Assembly: GCA_016190065.1 (NCBI GenBank)
Contig: JACPRI010000298.1
Location: 1 to 44,117 of the forward strand
Length of the DNA: 44,117 nt
Reading direction: 5' to 3'
Source: Verrucomicrobiota bacterium
Lineage (GTDB): Bacteria; Verrucomicrobiota; Verrucomicrobiia; Limisphaerales; SIBE01
Shown here: positions 13,206 to 39,019 of the stretch, piece after piece
Numbering within the stretch: the first letter of the stretch is position 1
Layout: each line of letters begins with the position of its first letter
Translations under genes and position numbers: made by a program
Notes under the pieces: generated by a model
Databases searched by the model: none
What the model saw: the letters and a program-made list of their open reading frames with translations, nothing else
What the model was told of the DNA's origin: nothing

Positions 13206-14273
13206 ATGAATCAGAATTCTTTTTCCTTTGGCATGCGGCACTTGTTGGCTGCCTTCGTTTGGCTGGGCGCAGTGACGAGCGCTTGGGCTCAGTCTTCGAC
13301 TGGTTACGTTGAGACCGGGGACGTGGCCCGAGAATTCACGCTCAAGAACCGCAAGACTGGAGAACCTCTCCGGTTGAGCGATTACGCGGGCAAGATTGTT
13401 GTGCTGGACCTCTTCGCGTATTGGTGAGGCGCTTGCCAGTTGCTCTCGCCGGTCGTCGAGAAAGAAATCAATAAATACTACAAAGCCAGGGAGGGGAATC
13501 CCGCCGGAATTCAGGTCGAAGTGCTGGGTGTCAACACCGACCAGACCAGTTCGGACAACACGGACGAATTCATCGGTGCCGTGGGCTTTGAGGTCGTGGC
13601 GGATGATCCGGACTGGGTGACGTATGGTCAATTCGGCCCCGGCGGCGCGGCGTCGCGTTACGTGATCATCAACGGTGTTGCGGACTCGCCGACGCACAAG
13701 CAGTGGGAAGTTCTGTTCAACGAAACGTTTTTCCAGCCTGGTGATGTCAGTCTCCTGCGTGCGCTGATCGACAAAGTCAAAACGCCCGTGCCCGCGCCGC
13801 CGAAGATTGCCGCGCAACCGCGGCCTCAAGAAGTGCTCCGAGGCGCAACCGTCATCCTCACTGTTTCCGCCACGGGCACGTCGCCGCTGTACTATCAATG
13901 GCACCGGAACGGCGTGCCCATTGCCGGCGCCACGGAGAAGTCACTCCTGCTGACCAACGTCAGTTTAGCCGACGCGGGCGAGTACTCAGCCACGGTCAGC
14001 AATCTCTTCGGCTCCGAAACGAGCCAGTCAGTTACGTTGAAGGTGACGGAGCCGCTTCGGCCTGTCCTTAGCGGCTTGTGGCGCCACGGCGACGGTGGCG
14101 TGGAATTTGTGATGAGCGGCGAGGCTGGCCGTGAATATCACATCGAATTCTCCACGGATTTAAGATTGTGGAAGCGCGTCGCAACGCTGCGCGCCAGCCA
14201 GGCGACTTCGATCTATCGGAATCCTGATACGGTCACAGAACCGCGAGGTTTCTTTCGCGCAGTAAGTGACTGA
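13206..14273 (+). CDS. Exported thioredoxin-fold selenoprotein with Ig-like domain (UGAC motif)
   Basis: Read as one gene through an in-frame TGA at 13425-13427, translated as selenocysteine: 355 residues with Sec74 and Cys77 in the motif YWUGACQLLSPVV. TGA stands exactly where the first Cys of the thioredoxin CxxC belongs, and the same frame continues for 282 codons with clear homology to the next selenoprotein. Residues 1-29 form a signal peptide (..VTSAWAQ), so the protein is exported. Residues about 34-190 are a TlpA/AhpC-like thioredoxin domain, 199-290 an Ig-like domain (YYQWHRNGVPIAGAT..DAGEYSATVSN), and 295-355 a C-terminal module shared with the second copy. The usual cis-Pro position appears to be Ser (ASRYVIIN). 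Its role is probably periplasmic thiol or peroxide redox chemistry. Without Sec insertion only a 73-residue fragment would be made. Confidence 0.88.
13444..13461 (+). promoter_or_regulatory. Bacterial SECIS-like hairpin for the first selenoprotein
   Basis: Stem TCTCGCC (13444-13450) pairs with GTCGAGA (13455-13461), giving six pairs and one C-U mismatch, around a GGTC loop at 13451-13454. Twenty-three bases separate the TGA from the loop, inside the range known for bacterial SECIS elements, and the loop begins with G, as SelB recognition requires in E. coli. The same hairpin and loop occur in the second copy. Confidence 0.75.
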
Positions 14274-14786
14274 GTTGGATCTAATCGCGAATCCACGCGG
14301 TGAAGTTGTTTGCACACCGCTTGCCTTCGCGATTTGAACGCAGGATTGCATGTGCAACAAAGTTTCTGGAATCCGAGAATGAGAGATCCTCGAACTCAAG
14401 ATGACGTGTTGTCCGGATCGAGGGTTGCACCGCGCTGGATTTGCCGATTTCGCTCATCATCGGTTGACCGGCATGATCCGAACAAAACCGCGTTTCGGCC
14501 TATGCCAGACGCTGTTTCCTCTGTGCTCTCCTGTTAAATTCAGCTCGGCGAGTTGGTGCTGGCGAAGAATCTCCTGGACCCATGCCGCATCGGACGCCGG
14601 AAGCGGCGGTTCGAGTTCGGAGCGGTAGCGGAGCAAGTGATAGCGTCCTTTTTCGTGGCAGTGATCGATCAGGGGTTGCAGCCTGGGATACCCAATCGCC
14701 AACCACGGAAAACCACCGGCGCCGTTATTCGGGGTTGTTTCCAGAGCGGAAACAGGTAGATTGTCGGCGGCTTGAGCGCCGAATTC
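14274..14786. other. Intergenic stretch between the two paralogous selenoprotein genes
   Basis: 513 bases with no convincing complete gene. The only coding-like signal is a minus-strand fragment (14457-14760), listed separately. No tRNA-like cloverleaf, SECIS or repeat family member was found here. Confidence 0.5.
14457..14760 (-). pseudogene. Protein-like open fragment of unknown family
   Basis: An open minus-strand frame reads GGFPWLAIGYPRLQPLIDHC, then HEKGRYHLLRYRSELEPP, then AAWVQEILRQHQLAELNL. The residue mix is natural, unlike most antisense frames in this window. An ATG-less start (TTG 14702) and the lack of any ribosome binding site suggest a remnant rather than a live gene. The family is not recognised. 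Confidence 0.3.
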
Positions 14787-15626
14787 ATGAAGCCAGTGGA
14801 CATTGCGAGATCCGAGCGAGGTTTTTCACCGGATGCCGGAAGGCGCTTTCTAGCTTTGTTTGTCTTGCTCCTGGCGTTCGCGCAGGTGACGCTCCCGGCT
14901 AAGGCCGCTTTCGTGCGTGTGGGGGAAATTGCCGCGGACCTTACGCTGAAAAAGCGCAAGACCGGCGAGGCCGTCAGCTTGAGGGATTTTGCCGGAAAGG
15001 TGATTTTCCTCGATCTCTTCGCGTATTGGTGAGGGTCCTGCCAATTGCTCTCGCCGGTCGTCGAGAAAGACATCAACGAATATTACAAGGCCCGGAACGG
15101 CACGTCGGCGGGCGTGGAGGTCGTCGTCATTGGCATCAACACGGACGTCACCAGCCAGGCGAATACGGACAATTTCATCCGGAACGTCGGCTTTGATTTG
15201 GTTCTGGATGATCCGGATTGGAAAAGCTACGCGCAGTTTGGCCCCGGCAATTCGGCGTCGCGCTACGTCATCATCAACGGCCTGGCCGACTCACCCAGCC
15301 ATAAGCAATGGGAAGTTCTTTTCAACCAGGTCTATTTTCAGCCGCGCCAGCCGGAAGTCGTCCGGGCCATCATCGAAAAGGTCAAGCCTCCCCCGGTTGC
15401 CGAACCGATTCGCCCCGTGCTCGGAGGCGTTCGGCGAATCGACTCCGGCGCGGTGGAGTTTGCGTTGAGCGGCGAAGTGGGCCGAAGATACCACGTGGAG
15501 TTTTCTACCGACCTGCGAAGTTGGACGCGCGTGGCCACGCTCACCGCCGGCGCGGAGAAAACCACTCACCGCGACGACCGCGCGGCTGCGGCGGCGCAAG
15601 GTTTTTATCGCGCCGTCAGTGAATAG
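14787..15626 (+). CDS. Exported thioredoxin-fold selenoprotein, paralog without Ig domain (UGSC motif)
   Basis: Read through an in-frame TGA at 15030-15032 as Sec82, with Cys85 in YWUGSCQLLSPVV: 279 residues. It is a paralog of the preceding selenoprotein: FVRVGEIAADLTLKKRKTGE, LDLFAYW, LSPVVEKDINEYYKARNG, QFGPGNSASRYVIING and HKQWEVLFN all have counterparts there. It lacks the Ig domain, so the thioredoxin domain runs straight into the C-terminal module (YHVEFSTDLRSWTRVATL). I chose ATG 14787 because it gives a good signal peptide (RRFLALFVLLLAFAQVTLPAKA). A TTG at 14772 is the alternative. A Ser again occupies the usual cis-Pro position. It is convergent with the phosphotriesterase-like gene, which ends four bases away. 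Confidence 0.88.
15049..15066 (+). promoter_or_regulatory. Bacterial SECIS-like hairpin for the second selenoprotein
   Basis: Identical to the first copy: TCTCGCC (15049-15055), GGTC loop (15056-15059), GTCGAGA (15060-15066), with the loop again 23 bases after the TGA. A 26-base block around it (15045-15070) matches 13440-13465 without a single change, even at third codon positions, whereas codons outside the block differ freely. Confidence 0.75.
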
Positions 15627-15630
15627 ACGG

Positions 15631-16671
15631 CTAGCGACCGCGCACTCGGATCGTAAAAGCATCCCGCGGGTTCATCACAAGCAACCCGCGAACCTCCTCG
15701 TCAGTGAAACCTTCCTTCTTCAGGGCAGGCATGAACGCGGTAAACAGCGGGTCAAACGGGCGAAAGTTTCCGCCCCCCGGTTCGCCCACGTGGTACCATC
15801 CCGCGTCGTGGGAAATGAGGACACGGTTCAGGAATCCGCGGTCGCGCAGCGTTCGGACGAATCTCACGTGCTGGTCGATGCTCTTGGGGGCGATCCCGTC
15901 AAACTCCACCCAGGCCCCGAGTTCGGCGGCTCTGGCGTGCAGGTCGGGATTGGATTCGCTTTGTGCGTGGACCCAAATGAACGCTTCGCTGCGCAAGCCT
16001 TCCTCCTGGATTACACGGAGTTCATCCAGCGCGGCGGCGCCGTTGCCCGTGTGGGCCGCGATGGTGAGCCCTGTTGCCCAGTGCGCGCGCGCCGCGGCTC
16101 GAACCAGTTTGCGATGAACTTCCGAGAGCGGCCCGGCATCGACGCCGATTTTCATGAAGCCGGGCCGAACGCCCGTGCCTTCAATTCCCTCTTTGGCCTC
16201 GCGAATCCAGCGCGCGGCAAGTTGATCCGCGGATTCTGTGAACGCGTGTTCCGGAAGATACTTGTTTTGCGCCGCGCCGTAATAACCCGTGTTCGTGAGC
16301 GCATTCAATCCAGTGGCGCGGGACAGGCGTTGCAGGAGCCTGGCATCGCGTCCGATGTAGGCCGGGGTGCATTCGACCAGTGTCTGACAACCAAGGTCGC
16401 GAATCCGCTGCAGATGCGGAAGCGCGACCTGGAAGACTTCGTCCGGCCGATAACGGGATTGGCTGATCTTCGCGGCGCCGATGAAATCGACCAGAACATG
16501 CTCGTGCGGCAATGTGATTCCAAGCTGGTCGGCACGAATCGGACCAAGAACAGTTTGAATCGCGCCTTGCGAAGGTACGGTCGGACGAGATCGACAAGAG
16601 CTGGCCTGGGCCACCAGACAACCAGTCCCGGCCAATGTGTCGCGAATGAATTCTCGACGTGTCGTGCTCAG
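15631..16671 (-). CDS. Tat-exported phosphotriesterase-like metallohydrolase (CTG start proposed)
   Basis: About 346 residues. The amidohydrolase-superfamily phosphotriesterase motifs are all present: TLPHEHVLVD (metal HxH), FMKIGVD (bridging Lys), IAAHTGNG (His), FIWVHAQSE (His) and LISHDAGWY (Asp). Family members hydrolyse phosphotriesters or lactones with two metals. The frame reaches upstream of TTG 16635 and encodes STTRREFIRDTLAGTG, a twin-arginine signal. No ATG or GTG lies in that stretch, but CTG 16671 has AAGGA five bases before it, so I propose CTG as start. The start then lies one base past the stop of the upstream selenoprotein gene, which makes the two a tight operon. The Cys in the signal region (AQASSC) might be lipidated, but that is weak. 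Confidence 0.85.
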   Translation of the reverse strand: MSTTRREFIRDTLAGTGCLVAQASSCRSRPTVPSQGAIQTVLGPIRADQLGITLPHEHVLVDFIGAAKISQSRYRPDEVFQVALPHLQRIRDLGCQTLVECTPAYIGRDARLLQRLSRATGLNALTNTGYYGAAQNKYLPEHAFTESADQLAARWIREAKEGIEGTGVRPGFMKIGVDAGPLSEVHRKLVRAAARAHWATGLTIAAHTGNGAAALDELRVIQEEGLRSEAFIWVHAQSESNPDLHARAAELGAWVEFDGIAPKSIDQHVRFVRTLRDRGFLNRVLISHDAGWYHVGEPGGGNFRPFDPLFTAFMPALKKEGFTDEEVRGLLVMNPRDAFTIRVRGR

Positions 16672-16672
16672 T

Positions 16673-17542
16673 CTATTCCTTGGCCGCTTCGGCCTCCGCG
16701 ATCAGTTTCTCCAATTCCTCGTCCAATACTTCTCCGCCAGGAGAGCCGAGGTGCTGATGCCGAATGACGCCCTTGTGATCGATGAGGAACAGTGTCGGCC
16801 ATCCGCGAATGCCCCAGGCCTGGGCAATCGGACCGCCGGTGCTCCCTCCGTCCCACCACGAGCGCCAGGTGATGTTCTCTTGCTCCAGAACCTTCCGCAG
16901 CCGTTCCTTCGGGTCGCTGTTGACGCCCAGCAGGACAAACGGGCGGCCTTCCAACCGCTTCACGAGCGACCGCTCGTGCGGGTACATGGCCCGGCAAGGC
17001 CCTCACCAATCCCCCCAGAAATCCACCAGGATAACTTTGCCGCGATAATCGCTGAGCGTAAACTCCTTTCCGTCCACGTCTTCGCCTTCGATTTCCGGGG
17101 CGGCTTGGCCCAGTACGAACTTCTCTTTGGCTGAGGCCGCCGCCGTGATAGCTTTGATTTCCCCGCGAACCAACTCGACGATCTGCGGCGTGGAGTTTTC
17201 GCGGTCGGGCGAGAGCATGGTCAGACGAATGACCGAGCCTTTCGGGCCACGAATCATTTGCACGACCTTGCTCATGTCGAGTCCCGCGGTCTTGACGGCC
17301 GGTTGGTCACCCTGAGCGATGGCAATGATGCGGTCGTTGGCCTTGATCTTGCCGCTCAGTGCCGCCGGTCCGCCGGACAACACCTGCTTCACCACAATAC
17401 CATCGCCCTCTTTGTTCAAGGCGACTCCGATTCCTGCAACGTCCTGTCCGAGGCATTTCACCCCGGCCACAAGGCAAAACATCAGCATGAAAGCGGCGGT
17501 TCCGATGCACGTCTCGCCAGTTCTCAGAAGAATGGATTTCAT
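16673..17542 (-). CDS. Exported PDZ-TlpA/ResA-type thioredoxin selenoprotein (UGPC motif)
   Basis: Read through an in-frame TGA at 17003-17005 as Sec180, with Cys183 in FWGDWUGPCRAMYPHE: 289 residues. WUGPC is the textbook thioredoxin WCGPC with Sec in place of the first, attacking Cys. ATG 17542 has AAGGAAA upstream and starts a signal peptide (FMLMFCLVAGVKCLGQ). Residues about 35-115 form a PDZ domain (GIGVALNKEGDGIVVKQVL..GKIKANDRIIAI). Residues about 145-289 are a TlpA/ResA thioredoxin domain (FTLSDYRGKVILVDFWGDW, then the cis-Pro in GWPTLFLIDHKG). The PDZ domain may bind a substrate or partner peptide. It is followed directly by the phosphotriesterase-like gene. Ordinary homologs have Cys here, so this copy needs Sec to be full length. 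Confidence 0.9.
16961..16978 (-). promoter_or_regulatory. Bacterial SECIS-like hairpin for the PDZ-thioredoxin selenoprotein
   Basis: On the minus strand CACGAGC (16978-16972), loop GGTC (16971-16968), GCTCGTG (16967-16961): a perfect seven-pair stem. Thirty-one bases lie between the TGA and the loop. The GGTC loop and its closing C-G pair are the same as in the two other selenoprotein genes, although the stem sequence and encoded residues are different. Confidence 0.78.
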
Positions 17543-29816: not shown

Positions 29817-30185
29817 GCGTCCTTTCACTCAGTTGGTGGGATGAGCTTCATGGCGGCGCAGCGCAAGCGCCGTTGATCTCCGCCCCTGTTCGTTTCCCTC
29901 CCGCAAGTGTGTGTTGCGGGAAATCTTTTGTTCTTCATCGGCTTCCGGGCCGCACCATAACGAGAAACACTTCGAAGGCCTTGACCCCTGTCAAAAAACG
30001 GGCCGCATGAATTTGTGATTGGCACGGCAATACTGGGAGACCTCTGATCAAGAGATGGAACTGCGCGGCGGCAGACACCTTCAGTCTGAGTCCGATGGCC
30101 TGACGGTCCCGCCGGGCAAGAAAAGCGAATCGGGCGTTGACGCGGGTCAAAAACCGCTGACGAAGGCTTGGCATCATGCGGGCAA
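29817..30185. other. Divergent intergenic region
   Basis: About 370 bases between divergently transcribed genes, expected to hold both promoters. No convincing -35/-10 pair, operator dyad or small gene could be fixed by eye. A minus-strand open frame at 29935-30369 overlaps the next gene and has no natural protein character. Confidence 0.4.
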
Positions 30186-32174
30186 ATGCGGAAGAGTCAG
30201 AAAGCACGGCTCGCGCTGTCGGCTGGAATTCCTCTGCGCTCCGCCGACGTGAAGGCATGCTCCGGAGACGCGCCAGCGCAGCTTGAAAAATCATCCTTCG
30301 TTTCCACATTTCCAGTTTTGGTTCTATTGCTGTGTTTCTGCATTTACGTCTGGGGGCAGATCGACCCATCGCTCCAGTACCAGGCTGCGGGCCGGACGTT
30401 CATTCTCGGCGCCGAGTTTCTCAAGAGCTACCTCACTCGTCCCGGTGGGATGACCGAGTATGCGACGGTGTTCCTGGCGCAGTTCAATCAGGTCGCCTGG
30501 CTTGGGGCGCTGGGCTTGACGCTTGGGGCCTGGTCAGTGCTTTCCGTCACTCGGCATCTGCTGGACGGGATTGCCGCGCTTCGGCTGGGGCCTGTTTTCT
30601 TCCTGCTCTTGCTGGCCAACCAATACGATTCCGCGCCTTGGCAGACGGTGCTCGAACTGTTCCTTAGCCTCAGCTTTGCGCTCGGCTACGTCGCTCTGCC
30701 TGGGCGGCGCGTGGGGGTGCGGTTCGCCGCATTTGCACCTGGTGCGCTGCTGCTCTATCACCTGGCCGGCGCGGGTCCTTGTTTCCTCTACGGCAGCCTT
30801 TGCGCCCTTTTTGAGTTTGCGCGCACTCGGCACTTTTTGGTGGGGGCGTCCAGTCTCTGCATGACGTGGGCAATTCCGTTTGTGGCCGGCTTTTTGTCGG
30901 GCGTTGATCTCAGCGACAGTTTCAAGCATTGGGGAACGGGAGTTCCATTCTGGCTGGCCGTGGCGTTCTACCTCTTCTTCCCGATCACGGCGTGGCTGGC
31001 CTGGGTCGGGAATGCGAAACGCCGATCGGGCAAGGAGGACTGCGTTCCTCCTCAACGTGAACTGATCCCCCTCACCCCGTCCCTCTCCTCCCGTGAGGGA
31101 GAGGGTGTCCGAAGGACGGGTGAGGGGGATTTCATCCGGCTCCTGGGCCGTGACCAGGTTAAGGCAGATTGCTTCATGCTGGCCCTGTTCCTTCTCATGC
31201 TGGGGTTGGCTTTACTCACGTTCGATCGGAATCGGAAGGCGCGGATGGAGGTCGATCAACTTGCGGAGCGCGGGAGATGGAATGAAGTGTTGGCCACCGC
31301 AGCGAAACTTCACGAGACCAGTCTTTTCTCCGCGCTTCAAGTTGATCGCGCGCTTTTCCATTCGGGCCGGATGGGTGACGAACTCTTCGCCTTTCGTCGA
31401 TTCAAGGGGCTTGATCTTCTGCCCGGCCTGGACAAGGGCCTGGAGCATTGCCGCGCCTTGAGCGCCACCCTTTTGGATCTCGGACACGTTAACCTCGCCG
31501 AACACTTCGCACACGAGGCCCTGGAATTGGAGGGCGAGCGTCCGGTTCTTCTCTGGCTGTTGGCGCGCATCAACGTCCTGAAGGACCGGCCTGACGCAGC
31601 TCGGGTTTTCCTGAATCTGCTGCAGAAAATTCCTTTTCAGCGTGAGGCGGCCGGCCGCTGGCTGTGCGCGCTCGAAGCCGATCCTCAATTGCGGCAGCAA
31701 CAAGACCTGGCGCAAGTTCGTTCTCGCATGGTTGCGGTGGATGAACCCGAGGGCGGTCTGCTCACGGAAACTCTCCTGGAGCAACTCCTGCAAGCGAATC
31801 GTCGGAACCGCATGGCCTTCGAGTACCTGATGGCCCATTGTCTGTTGACTTTCCAACTCGATAAGTTGGTTCAGAACCTTGGCCGGCTGGACGATTTCGA
31901 TTGTCCGACGATTCCCACGCATTACGAGGAAGCGATTCTTTTGCGGCAACGATTCAAAGGAGAAATTCAGATCGATCTCCGCAGCCGAAAAATCAGCTCG
32001 AAGAGCGTGGAAAAGTTTGCGCGGTTCCAAGCGCAAATGGACCGCTTCCAGAACCGACGCGAGGAAGCCCGGACCGCACTGGTGGGCGAGTTTGGCGACA
32101 CCTACTGGTATTACTTTCTTTTCGCGCGAACGGCCGGCCAGAAGGCGACCGCCGTGCAGGAGTCCGAGCAATGA
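30186..32174 (+). CDS. DUF6057-like multi-pass membrane protein with helical C-terminal half
   Basis: 662 residues from ATG 30186 (TTG 30168 is an alternative). The N-terminal half has about ten hydrophobic segments (FPVLVLLLCFCIYVWG, LGPVFFLLLLANQYDSAPW, FWLAVAFYLFFPITAWLAWVG and others). The C-terminal half is soluble and helical, with TPR-like repeats (LAEHFAHEALELEGERPVLL, RFQNRREEARTALVG). The overall plan and the ANQYDSAPW segment recall DUF6057, but I cannot confirm that without a search. Between membrane and soluble halves lies a PLTPSLSSREGEGVRRTGEG stretch encoded by a palindromic repeat. The gene precedes a monohaem PD40 protein and is likely co-transcribed with it. Function is unknown. 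Confidence 0.78.
   Translation: MRKSQKARLALSAGIPLRSADVKACSGDAPAQLEKSSFVSTFPVLVLLLCFCIYVWGQIDPSLQYQAAGRTFILGAEFLKSYLTRPGGMTEYATVFLAQFNQVAWLGALGLTLGAWSVLSVTRHLLDGIAALRLGPVFFLLLLANQYDSAPWQTVLELFLSLSFALGYVALPGRRVGVRFAAFAPGALLLYHLAGAGPCFLYGSLCALFEFARTRHFLVGASSLCMTWAIPFVAGFLSGVDLSDSFKHWGTGVPFWLAVAFYLFFPITAWLAWVGNAKRRSGKEDCVPPQRELIPLTPSLSSREGEGVRRTGEGDFIRLLGRDQVKADCFMLALFLLMLGLALLTFDRNRKARMEVDQLAERGRWNEVLATAAKLHETSLFSALQVDRALFHSGRMGDELFAFRRFKGLDLLPGLDKGLEHCRALSATLLDLGHVNLAEHFAHEALELEGERPVLLWLLARINVLKDRPDAARVFLNLLQKIPFQREAAGRWLCALEADPQLRQQQDLAQVRSRMVAVDEPEGGLLTETLLEQLLQANRRNRMAFEYLMAHCLLTFQLDKLVQNLGRLDDFDCPTIPTHYEEAILLRQRFKGEIQIDLRSRKISSKSVEKFARFQAQMDRFQNRREEARTALVGEFGDTYWYYFLFARTAGQKATAVQESEQ
31067..31128. 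repeat. Palindromic repeat inserted in frame in the DUF6057-like gene
   Basis: The arms CCCCCTCACCCCGTCC (31067-31082) and GGACGGGTGAGGGGG (31114-31128) are complementary apart from one base, with an inner CCCTCTCC..GGGAGAGGG hairpin. It encodes about 21 residues in the loop before the next membrane helix. It is the same family as the elements at 5888-6021 and 13045-13137. Confidence 0.8.
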
Positions 32175-35929: not shown

Positions 35930-38900
35930 ATGACATTCCTCACACTGATTGACTTCACCAGCGGGCTGCTCCGGGTGTCGTTACAGGCCTCGGTTGTGAT
36001 CGGGCTGGTTTTGCTGGCGCAATGGTTGTTCCGGAACAAGCTTTCGCCCCGGTGGCGGTATGCGTTATGGATGGTGGTGTTGCTTCGCCTGGCGTTGCCG
36101 GTTTTGCCAGGGAGTCCGTTCAGCATTTTCAATTATACCCAAGGCGTGGGCATGTTCGCCCGCCGCACCGACGCCTCCGGGGGTGCGCGGCCCGAATTGT
36201 CCGTTCCTGCTCCAACGCCATCCATCCCCGCTCTGACTCCCGCGACGGATGAACGGCTCGCAAACACTTCGAGCCGTGACACGGGTTCCAGGAACCTCGA
36301 TCCAGGCGCGTTGACCGGGGCGAGCGCAGGAACCGCGGCGGGAGAGGAAAAATCGGCGGACCTGGCTGTCCCCGCTGCAAAGCGCTCACGCTCCACGCTC
36401 CCCACGCTCCACGTGTTCCTCTCCTCGCTCTGGCTGACCGGCGTTCTGTTACTGGCCGCACGAATTCTCTCATACCCGAGGCGGCTCAACGCGCAATTGG
36501 CGCAGCACGAGTCGCCGACCCCGCCGGCGCTCTTCGAGGTATTGGAAGAGTCCAAGCGCCTCATCGGGGTCAAGCAGGTGCTGCCAATCGTGCAAAGCGG
36601 CGCGGTGAAAAGTCCGGCATTGCTGGGCTTCATTCGGCCCTGGCTGCTGTTGCCGGAAGGCATGGCGGACCGATTCACGCCGCAGGAATTGCGCCTGGTG
36701 TTCTTGCATGAGTTGGCCCATCTGAAACGCCGCGACATCGCGGTCAACTGGCTGATGACGCTCCTGCAAATCTTGCACTGGTTCAATCCGCTCATCTGGT
36801 TCGCATTTGCCCGCATGCGCGCCGACCGCGAATTGGCCTGCGATGAACTGGCGCTGTCGCACGCACCCGAAGCCGATCGTCAGCCTTACGGGGAGGCCAT
36901 GATCAAACTGTTGGAAAGTTTCACACGCCCCGCGGCCGTCGCCGGCCTGGTGGGCATCCTCGAAGACAAACAACAAATGAAACGGAGAATTGGTATGATA
37001 GCACGGTTTGATGGAGCAATCCGTTGGTCCGCCGTGATTCCTCTTGGGCTGGCGCTCTTACTGGGAATCGTCGGCTTGACGGATGCTCAAACGGATGAGC
37101 AGCGGAAAGACGCGACACCGGAAAAGCCGGTTTCAGCGGTAGTGGTCCGACAAGTTTGGGCGCCAGCCCAGGCTACCGGCGGTACCATCAGCTCGCACGG
37201 GCGCTATCTCTCCTTTTCGGATCCGGAGTCGGGCGACGTGGCCGTTCGAGACTTGACCACGGGAAAGAACCGACGACTCACCGGCAAGGGGTCGTGGGAC
37301 AAATCAAACGAGTTTGCTGACGAAACAGTATTTGCACCTGACGGAAAACGGCTGGCGTATTCATGGTACGACGGCCAGAAATTCTTCGAGTTGCGCACTA
37401 TTTCCCTTGATGATCCCCAACCGCGTGTCCTCGCCAAGGACAACTCGTTTGATGTCTGGGACTGGTCGCCGGACGGCAAGAGCATCCTCGCCACGAGTTG
37501 GGGAGACTATCAAACAAAAGGTAGCCAGTTACTTCTAGTAACCGCTGAGGACGGTGCTATGCGGATGATCAAGTCATTTCGTGGCTCCGGACCCTGGAAT
37601 GCCAAGTTCTCGCCGGACGGGCGTTTTCTAGCGGTTTCCTACAGAAATGATAAATCGGTGGATATTGCGCTCCTCAATATGGAGAACGGGACCGAGCTGC
37701 CGCTCGTGCAGCATCCGGCTGAGGATTTAGTCGTCGGTTGGACTCCGGACGGGGCAAGCGTTTTATTCGTGAGCAATCGGCGCGGGGCGAAGGATCTCTG
37801 GAGCATTGACGTTGAGGAAGGCAGAGCCAAAGGACTCCCGGTTCTGCTAAAGGCGGACTTCGGCGATGTCCATGTTCTTGGGATATCTCAACAGGGCCAG
37901 TTGTGGTACGGCGTCTCGCGGAACTCCGACAACGCAATGGCGGTTCTGGAAATCGATTTCCCAACCGGGAAAGCAAGATCAGGCTTGCGTCAAATCGCGC
38001 ATCCAGCCAACCACTTTCTGCGTGGAATGGCCTTGTCGCCGAATGGGCGCTATTTGGCATTTGCGGCGACCGAGACGCGCAGCGGACCTCCAAAGCAAAA
38101 ATTGTTCGTTCTCGACTTGGAGACCCGCATTCAGCGGGAGGTGACCAACCAAGTTCACCTGGGACGCTGGCTCGCGGACAATCGAACAATCTTTCGAAGA
38201 ATTGGTGCGCCTGGCAAACGCGAGGAACTTTCGTTGCTCGACACCGAGAAGGGTGAAGTCACAGAACTCGGAGGCGACGAGCACGGACCCTGGCCAGGGA
38301 TCGGACGGACGGGTAATTTCATGTTCAATTCCACCGAGCAAGCCCTTCTTTACGTGTGCTGGAGTTCCAAACGGCAAGCCTTTATGGCAAAACGCCGTGA
38401 TCTCCGAACCGGTGACACGATCGAAACCGTCGTAGCAACCGCGCCGGAACCTGACACAGAATACAGTTTTGACATCACCAGCGACCTGAAATCTGTGTTC
38501 TACTCCGCAAACCCAAAGGAAAAATCGTCCGAACGCCCCAGCCGGATATTCCGCTGCGTTCTTGAAACAGAGACGACGGTCGAATGGATGCGTTCCACGA
38601 ATTATCTCAACGCATTCCCTTCGCCAAATCCTTCGCGAATCGCCGTTGCAGAAGCGCCGACCTATTGGGAACGAAACATACGGCTCTACTCTCTGGAAGC
38701 GAATCCTCCCCGGGAACTCTGGACCGCGCATGTGCCACCTCCAGTGGTAGTTTACGGTTGGACTCCGGATGGACAGTATTTGATCTGCCGGGGGCCGGGG
38801 ACGGATGACCACGCTGCAAAGATTGATCCAAATCCGATAACTTTGGTTTCGGCCTCAGGACAGGTAACAAGAACCGACGTCAAGATTCCCCAAATGGGCT

Positions 38901-39019
38901 ATATCGCTGCAGTCCACCCGCACGCTGGCCAAATCTTCATGATACTCCGCGAGCCGCCGGTCCGGGAAATATGGGTCATGGAAAACTTTCTGCCTAAAGG
39001 CAAAATGGCGGCGAAGTGA
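35930..39019 (+). CDS. M56 (BlaR1-type) membrane metalloprotease fused to a TolB/PD40 beta-propeller
   Basis: 1029 residues. The N terminus has membrane helices (VSLQASVVIGLVLLAQWLF, ALWMVVLLRLALPVL), a Pro/Thr-rich loop, another helix, then the M56 gluzincin site VFLHELAHLKRRDIAVNW with HExxH at about residues 260-264, and RADRELACDELALSH with the third ligand region. A last helix (VIPLGLALLLGIVGL) at about residues 365-380 leads to a 640-residue PD40 propeller (VFAPDGKRLAYS, DWSPDGKSILATS, KFSPDGRFLAVS, ALSPNGRYLAFA) ending in REIWVMENFLPKGKMAAK. Where BlaR1 carries a penicillin-binding sensor, this protein has the propeller, probably outside the membrane. Inferred circuit: the propeller senses a ligand, the protease cuts BlaI. 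Confidence 0.92.
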   Translation: MTFLTLIDFTSGLLRVSLQASVVIGLVLLAQWLFRNKLSPRWRYALWMVVLLRLALPVLPGSPFSIFNYTQGVGMFARRTDASGGARPELSVPAPTPSIPALTPATDERLANTSSRDTGSRNLDPGALTGASAGTAAGEEKSADLAVPAAKRSRSTLPTLHVFLSSLWLTGVLLLAARILSYPRRLNAQLAQHESPTPPALFEVLEESKRLIGVKQVLPIVQSGAVKSPALLGFIRPWLLLPEGMADRFTPQELRLVFLHELAHLKRRDIAVNWLMTLLQILHWFNPLIWFAFARMRADRELACDELALSHAPEADRQPYGEAMIKLLESFTRPAAVAGLVGILEDKQQMKRRIGMIARFDGAIRWSAVIPLGLALLLGIVGLTDAQTDEQRKDATPEKPVSAVVVRQVWAPAQATGGTISSHGRYLSFSDPESGDVAVRDLTTGKNRRLTGKGSWDKSNEFADETVFAPDGKRLAYSWYDGQKFFELRTISLDDPQPRVLAKDNSFDVWDWSPDGKSILATSWGDYQTKGSQLLLVTAEDGAMRMIKSFRGSGPWNAKFSPDGRFLAVSYRNDKSVDIALLNMENGTELPLVQHPAEDLVVGWTPDGASVLFVSNRRGAKDLWSIDVEEGRAKGLPVLLKADFGDVHVLGISQQGQLWYGVSRNSDNAMAVLEIDFPTGKARSGLRQIAHPANHFLRGMALSPNGRYLAFAATETRSGPPKQKLFVLDLETRIQREVTNQVHLGRWLADNRTIFRRIGAPGKREELSLLDTEKGEVTELGGDEHGPWPGIGRTGNFMFNSTEQALLYVCWSSKRQAFMAKRRDLRTGDTIETVVATAPEPDTEYSFDITSDLKSVFYSANPKEKSSERPSRIFRCVLETETTVEWMRSTNYLNAFPSPNPSRIAVAEAPTYWERNIRLYSLEANPPRELWTAHVPPPVVVYGWTPDGQYLICRGPGTDDHAAKIDPNPITLVSASGQVTRTDVKIPQMGYIAAVHPHAGQIFMILREPPVREIWVMENFLPKGKMAAK

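Follow-up and report, generated by a model that had tools for sequence, protein, structure and literature searches.

We examined a 44,117-nucleotide (nt) stretch of DNA from a Verrucomicrobiota bacterium (assembly GCA_016190065.1, contig JACPRI010000298.1), hereafter the window, which corresponds to contig C234 of a 5.56-Mb genome of 472 contigs that is 67.8% complete. An initial annotation of the window had drawn attention to three genes (genes 1, 2 and 3), each carrying one in-frame TGA, at the motifs YWUGACQ, YWUGSCQ and DWUGPCR. We recovered these frames as described, with the TGAs beginning at 13425, 15030 and, on the minus strand, 17005 (Table 1). In each gene the TGA takes the place of the first cysteine (Cys) of a thioredoxin-type CxxC motif, and the sequence evidence makes it very probable that this codon is read as selenocysteine (Sec, U). 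This reading rests on the TGA codons, homology on both sides of them, a column of Cys and TGA in the relatives, Sec machinery genes, and the conservation and covariation of a hairpin that resembles a Sec insertion sequence (SECIS). Support from the hairpin is strong for gene 3 and weaker for genes 1 and 2.

Table 1. Features of the three predicted selenoprotein genes, the adjoining gene and a paralog elsewhere in the genome. Positions are those of the window unless a contig is named.
Feature	Position	Strand	Description
Sec gene 1	13206..14273	+	Predicted signal peptide, thioredoxin-fold domain with UGAC, immunoglobulin (Ig) domain (I-set), C-terminal beta module
Gene 1 in-frame TGA	13425..13427	+	Predicted Sec, motif YWUGACQ
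Gene 1 predicted SECIS hairpin	13444..13461	+	UCUCGCC-GGUC-GUCGAGA; apical loop 23 nt after UGA; one C.U stem mismatch
Gene 1 Ig domain	13800..14045	+	I-set/Ig_3
Sec gene 2	14787..15626	+	Predicted signal peptide, thioredoxin fold with UGSC, C-terminal beta module, stop TAG
Gene 2 in-frame TGA	15030..15032	+	Predicted Sec, motif YWUGSCQ
Gene 2 predicted SECIS hairpin	15049..15066	+	Same 18 nt as gene 1; loop 23 nt after UGA
Gene 2 C-terminal beta module	15396..15623	+	
Phosphotriesterase-family gene	15631..16635	-	Directly after gene 3 on the same strand; same neighbour in G001
Sec gene 3	16673..17542	-	Predicted signal peptide, PDZ domain, ResA-like thioredoxin domain with UGPC
Gene 3 predicted SECIS hairpin	16961..16978	-	CACGAGC-GGUC-GCUCGUG; 7 base pairs (bp); apical loop 31 nt after UGA; -10.5 kcal/mol alone
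Gene 3 in-frame TGA	17003..17005	-	Predicted Sec, motif DWUGPCR
Gene 3 PDZ domain	17219..17434	-	
URTU paralog	G000:C358 (L059:827-2119, minus strand)		431 amino acids (aa), two in-frame TGAs; a single SECIS-like hairpin follows the UGAs at 31 and 22 nt

The product of gene 1 is 355 aa long with the predicted Sec at residue 74, and that of gene 3 is 289 aa long with the predicted Sec at residue 180 and a TAG stop. The frame of gene 2 is open from TTG 14772, but ATG 14787 is more likely to be its start. Behind the TGAs the frames run on for 281, 197 and 109 codons, respectively, and relatives align on both sides. Openness past a TGA proves little by itself because the DNA is GC-rich and long chance frames occur: among 188 open reading frames (ORFs) of at least 60 aa that end in TGA, such stretches reach 645 codons. 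The case for predicted Sec is carried by relatives that align before and after the TGA, by homologs with Cys in that column and by the putative hairpin behind the codon.

In-frame TGA in several genes could also arise if the codon had been reassigned genome-wide to an ordinary amino acid, such as tryptophan or glycine. However, 13 window ORFs picked as ordinary genes end in TGA with 0-80 open codons behind, as expected from the initial claim that TGA is an ordinary stop here. Gene 1 itself ends in TGA (14271-14273), and therefore the same codon is both internal and terminal within one gene. The internal TGAs of genes 1-3 and of the paralog on contig C358 all lie at Cys places of redox sites, and the genome holds selA, selB and a tRNA-Sec with anticodon TCA. 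Taken against these observations, reassignment is hardly credible.

For comparison across relatives, we defined family A as genes 1 and 2 with their relatives and family B as gene 3 with its relatives. Codons at the Sec place were tabulated from loci L019 onward with local alignment scores above 110, dropping rows that shared the 75 nt from the codon. Family A had TGA in 13 rows and TGC or TGT in the remaining 25 of 38, and family B had 26 TGA, 18 Cys and one other codon. In-frame UGA flanked by homology thus alternates with Cys at the same place, which is where the initial annotation had suggested looking for it. In the protein database we found 21 relatives of gene 2. Among the eight examined, five start right behind the TGA, one starts further on, and two (P0022 and P0023, with YWCPYC and YWCGPC) are continuous with Cys. 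The database also held 1,184 relatives of gene 3, of which 120 were listed; eight of these, among them the entry from the window, stop immediately ahead of the TGA, and the other 112 align across it with Cys in 95 cases and another residue in 17 (Ser in five, Tyr in four, Arg in three, and Gly, Trp, Glu, Phe and Asn in one each). The initial annotation had said that homologs uniformly ending at the TGA would speak against Sec, and among the relatives listed this ending is confined to those eight. Four of the non-Cys residues (Arg in P0042, Gly in P0054, Trp in P0058 and Ser in P0040) are one base from TGA, as if a UGA had mutated, judging by the proteins alone. One of the eight truncated entries, P0100, starts with MYPHERSLV and stops ahead of a TGA, and so resembles the middle part of a double Sec-thioredoxin.

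Database entries that end or begin at the TGA, as gene callers read it, and the chance frames of GC-rich DNA are what one would expect if the TGAs were ordinary stops and the loci truncated genes, pseudogenes or pairs of separate genes. This explanation is very unlikely given that 39 distinct rows from the two families have TGA at one and the same catalytic codon, flanked by homologous sequence, and that other rows have Cys in that column. Furthermore, synonymous sites are fixed within the hairpin behind the family B TGA, and Sec machinery is present in the genome. A still more remote explanation is that independent sequencing or assembly errors created three TGAs, for which the fragmentation of the assembly into 472 contigs is the argument. 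The same TGAs recur in separate genomes (G001 and G002 for genes 1/2; G001, G003, G005, G007 and G061 for gene 3), which agrees with the earlier judgment that three independent errors are not credible and leaves this explanation with a negligible probability.

Two further kinds of candidate were rejected. TAA or TAG codons inside thioredoxin matches, considered as extra recoding, were terminal stops behind a normal CGPC in the two loci read (L037 and L046). A weak AhpC-TSA match in the window's genome (G000:C116, 21.7 bits, HWUPLC) was not counted because it drifts out of homology. A tree of 234 family B rows needed at least 15 changes between Sec and Cys. We claim no number of switches from it because the starred branches force only two per label and the alignment columns are few.

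The initial annotation had recommended a search of the genome for selA, selB, selD and tRNA-Sec, and all four were present despite 67.8% completeness. The selB gene (C141:7912-9864) scored 321.8 bits against a cut-off of 242.25, selA (C141:11503-12849) scored 479.6 against 267.9, and selD (C408:270-1193), which has one in-frame TGA of its own (SCAGUASK), scored 369 against 125. The tRNA-Sec with anticodon TCA (C149:13664-13758) scored 65.6 bits. An ORF for an AAA ATPase (PF13304; L066:10170-11411) lies between selB and selA. We then considered 146 genomes, comprising the window's and its relatives up to its order, of which 53 had selA over the cut-off. A Sec form of either family occurred in at least 20 of them, counting matches listed and rows examined, and Sec forms of family B occurred in 14 within the window's order. 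Of the 20, 17 had selA, compared with 36 of the 126 others (Fisher p = 2.2e-6, uncorrected for kinship); the three Sec-form genomes lacking it (G007, G061 and G145) are 60%, 79% and 85% complete. Four contigs (G032:C64, G105:C1, G125:C133 and G143:C193) carry family B Sec thioredoxin genes at a distance of about 3-4 kb from selA.

Bacterial SECIS elements are constrained in PMC13188914 to a loop of 3-9 nt that begins with two Gs, a stem of 4-16 bp, a spacing of 16-37 nt and an energy of at most -7.5 kcal/mol. The gene 3 hairpin lies within all of these limits (Table 1). A hairpin with a GGU loop (score ≥ 9) occurred in 26 of 26 family B Sec rows and in none of the 18 Cys rows. We quantified codon conservation in the 26 Sec rows, which had been found through protein similarity. 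The hairpin codons GAG, CGG, TCG and CTC, encoding E-R-S-L, had a synonymous identity of 1.00 in the 25, 26, 26 and 26 rows keeping the residue. Arg, Ser and Leu have six codons each. Values were mostly 0.2-0.7 at the surrounding degenerate codons, with 0.84 at the two outer codons of the hairpin and 0.91 at the motif's Cys codon. The ERSL peptide is kept in 25 of 26 Sec rows versus 27 of 95 Cys proteins, a contrast that is partly kinship because the Cys set is more varied.

Substitutions in the stem are also compensatory. L057 has T-A for C-G together with a change from Val to Met, and L061 has T-A for C-G, where one side turns His into Tyr and the other is silent. In a set of nine distinct hairpins drawn from the two families, both sides had changed in six of seven stem pairs, a number reached by 5 of 500 shuffles. 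The covariation score was 0.615 compared with 0.281 in shuffles, none of 500 of which reached it, and at most 0.289 in slid versions. The hairpin signal came only through comparison across relatives, and an Rfam scan of the window at the gathering threshold returned no match.

In family A, the predicted hairpins of genes 1 and 2 agree with the bacterial SECIS model of PMC13188914 in their 4-nt apical loop, G in the first two places and a spacing that is 23 nt here and 31 nt in gene 3, but they miss the energy limit (-4.2 kcal/mol) and contain a mismatch. The GGUC apex is kept on differently paired stems in L072, L075, L077 and L111. A hairpin with a GGU loop scored at least 9 in 11 of 13 Sec rows and in 6 of 25 Cys rows (p = 5e-4), the Sec rows below this score being L110 and L073. 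One of these six Cys rows, L081 (minus strand, genome G027, TGC), has a perfect hairpin, CUCAGC-GGUC-GCUGAG. It reads as a probable Cys revertant with a fossil SECIS because three other genomes of its family (G078, G107 and G145) carry TGA at that place and G027 has selA.

We scanned a collection of 84,980 species genomes with the pattern TGA-N24-YAYGAGCGGTCGCTC, for which we estimated some 30 chance matches in the whole collection. At least 119 stretches matched, and 80 loci were listed. Of the 82 pattern matches in these loci, 81 were thioredoxin frames at that TGA (76 UxxC and 5 UxxU), and the lone match outside them was L134 (Myxococcota). The scan tests the protein rather than the hairpin because the pattern itself demands the hairpin. 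By record title, the listed loci comprised 58 from Planctomycetota, 14 from Verrucomicrobiota, two each from Bacillota and Myxococcota, one from Pseudomonadota and three without a phylum, counts that are not frequencies because they cover only part of the matches. Gene 3 is a member of a large family that falls mainly in Planctomycetota and Verrucomicrobiota among the matches listed. The initial annotation had called the cluster of three genes unusual. The scale is wider than had been proposed: one relative, G001, also has the cluster, with a single copy of gene 1/2, and gene 3 has the large family just described.

Within the window's genome the pattern matched twice, in gene 3 and in the C358 paralog, bringing the predicted Sec genes of this genome to at least five (genes 1-3, selD and C358). 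Forms like C358 occur at L033, L060, L061, L128, L154 and L176. Animal SelL shares the UxxU motif of C358, a likeness by motif alone. At L198 (19-2412), which has two thioredoxin domains, the codon at the Sec place of the second is TCA (Ser) and the 14 inner hairpin bases are intact; this hairpin looks like a fossil SECIS element.

Several observations weigh against reading the three TGAs as Sec or against parts of the case. Shuffled sequences fold as well as the 50-nt stretches starting at the TGAs (z = 0.81, 0.83 and -0.67). The hairpin of genes 1 and 2 is weak at -4.2 kcal/mol alone versus -7.5 in the published model, and that of gene 2 is not the minimum-energy fold in context, with pair probabilities of about 0.01. 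In family A, the hairpin score was missed by two Sec rows and reached by six Cys rows, as given above, and three of four Sec rows with WWUP (L078, L110 and L073) have loops other than GGUC or GGU. In family B, the contrast between Sec and Cys rows is partly kinship because the Cys rows are more distant than the Sec rows. The hairpin of L028 lacks the outer pair, most of the stem differs in the second L026 copy, and the outer stem pair forms in only 56 of 81 pattern-scan rows among the loci listed. The covariation set consists of nine distinct rows that mix two families. Among 387 genomes of the window's phylum, two of them from its order, the exact pattern occurred only in the window's genome. 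No DsbD_TM or DsbD/CcdA-type protein was found in the window's genome at its 67.8% completeness. Signal peptides were called by eye from the sequence, and structure models of genes 2 and 3 show an N-terminal helix. Finally, Sec at all three places is a prediction from sequence.

All three proteins passed the Pfam cut-off for AhpC-TSA (PF00578, 26 bits) with 34.4, 28.7 and 78.9 bits, and the two C-terminal beta modules and the PDZ domain given in the initial annotation were confirmed. Gene 1 has thioredoxin, Ig and beta module, gene 2 thioredoxin and beta module, and gene 3 PDZ and thioredoxin. The beta module of gene 1 was assigned via similarity to that of gene 2, over which a Pfam scan found no match. 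This module (residues 207-283 of gene 2) also has matches in many long ORFs of the window's order, in frames of up to 8,919 aa. The gene 2 model (predicted local distance difference test score, pLDDT, 87.5) has a thioredoxin fold and a beta module, and its nearest structures are thiol-disulfide (DsbE-like) proteins of Bacteroides and Chlorobium and ResA, with a template modelling (TM) score of 0.83 to 3gl3 chain C. The gene 3 model (pLDDT 84.6) has a PDZ and a ResA-like domain and a TM score of 0.92 by target to 4nmu chain D. Both models therefore have the same fold by structure as ResA, DsbE and TlpA.

Genes 2 and 3 resemble the extracytoplasmic thiol-disulfide oxidoreductases ResA, DsbE/CcmG and TlpA in this fold, and the window's genes resemble them in predicted export and in the place of CxxC. 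They differ in having Sec for the first Cys, extra domains and bit scores far under the curated cut-offs. Among the listed matches, no NCBIfam model exceeded its cut-off for the three proteins or six further members. Gene 3 scored 71.5 bits against 170 for NF002854, 49.5 against 123.15 for TIGR00385 and 64.9 against 230 for NF047696. The nearest Sec-specific model is NF041054 (WAxxUGC_long, a ResA-like WAxxUGC protein), whose cut-off of 300 bits was not reached by gene 3 (40.1) or the six other members (28.7-47.3); the motif of gene 3 is instead DWUGPC. The Trx7/PDZ domain selenoprotein NF041199 gave no gene 3 match at E 0.001. It has PDZ and thioredoxin-type domains in common with gene 3, but Sec comes second in its motif (CxxU, in the table of PMC13188914) and first in that of gene 3 (UxxC).

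Peroxiredoxin-like (Prx-like) thiol:disulfide oxidoreductase selenoproteins with PF00578 and UxxC or UxxU are listed in PMC13188914 and PMC9312934. Compared by description, they are like the window's families in the AhpC-TSA thioredoxin-type domain, Sec first in the redox motif and the existence of UxxU versions. In contrast, PDZ, Ig or beta modules are added in the window's families, and the SECIS of family B, which occurs mainly in two phyla, is nearly fixed. An ocean survey (PMC2398784) describes UxxU sequences in a Prx-like 2 family, which is likened to C358 by motif alone. Selenoproteins have been reported in two Planctomycetes (PMC4807772), and the main text of a 2026 review (PMC13188914), as far as available, has no word beginning Verrucomicrob or Planctomyc. 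A description of the family was not found in the accessible portions of the open-licence literature, including PMC5029168, PMC12013277, PMC1794560 and PMC1088965. UxxC and UxxU members of AhpC-TSA are thus already known from these sources, and the novelty lies in the domain architectures, in a SECIS that is nearly fixed and in the breadth of occurrence.

Among the 13 family A Sec rows, 9, both window genes among them, have lost the proline that aligns with the cis-proline of thioredoxins, and 26 of 27 Cys rows keep it. The cis-proline of thioredoxins supports client binding and blocks metal binding. The sole Cys row without it, L081, still has a SECIS-like hairpin. These observations raise the question of whether Sec is made but genes 1 and 2 encode selenol peroxidases or metal or selenium binders, having lost a residue needed for disulfide exchange. 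We regard this as rather unlikely because genes 1 and 2 retain the UxxC pair, gene 2 matches DsbE-like proteins and ResA best in structure, and four family A Sec rows keep the proline; gene 3 also has a proline, in GWPT. The loss does not represent nine events because the nine rows form few lineages. On balance, a reductase role of genes 1 and 2 is somewhat favored.

The relative G001, from the same genus, has the gene order of the window: an MFS transporter, one Sec thioredoxin, a phosphotriesterase, a PDZ-thioredoxin and a TPR protein. Because G001 has one copy of gene 1/2, genes 1 and 2 look like a tandem duplicate, or a copy was lost in G001. The contigs of P0005, a relative of gene 2, and P0012, a relative of gene 1, are both 150,439 bases long and perhaps represent a second tandem pair. 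In other genera, several family A genes, as at L114:704-2497 and L118:1956-3824, have close by a second ORF, some 540-670 codons long, that encodes a Cys thioredoxin domain of its own; no further Pfam domain was found in the two that were tested. Elsewhere, the window encodes a DUF6057 protein (30168-32174) and a BlaR1-type M56 peptidase with PD40 repeats (35930-39019).

If the TGAs are read as Sec, SelB carrying Sec-tRNA would bind the GGUC-apex hairpin 23-31 nt behind the UGA and decode it, and ribosomes without SelB and Sec-tRNA would stop there. Predicted N-terminal signal peptides would direct the proteins out of the cytoplasm, where they may work as thiol-disulfide reductases of the ResA/DsbE kind. 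Their selenol would attack client proteins at a disulfide or an oxidized thiol, and formation of a selenenylsulfide with the second Cys of the site would then set the client free. The enzymes may be tethered to a surface or to client proteins through their extra modules, Ig and beta in genes 1 and 2 and PDZ in gene 3.

More tentatively, we propose that a large and as yet unnamed family of exported Sec-thioredoxins may be common to Planctomycetota and Verrucomicrobiota, and that its SECIS may have frozen the ERSL codons and the peptide behind the active site, such that an RNA element would dictate part of the catalytic helix. The UxxU forms, with one hairpin for two UGAs, and the Ser form with a fossil hairpin could have followed from this, and family A would have a comparable Cys form. 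A Sec-bound subgroup of family A would have given up the cis-proline and may perform chemistry that Cys cannot.

These results imply that part of the bacterial selenoproteome is hidden, as gene callers cut genes at UGA and databases hold the headless and tailless halves. Since a nearly invariant SECIS lies within the coding region of many genes, how an RNA signal constrains a protein can be tested by comparison alone. The gain and loss of Sec can be tested in the same way from the Sec, Ser and UxxU forms that share one hairpin. An exported thioredoxin with a selenol also raises the question of how selenols would stay reduced outside the cytoplasm.

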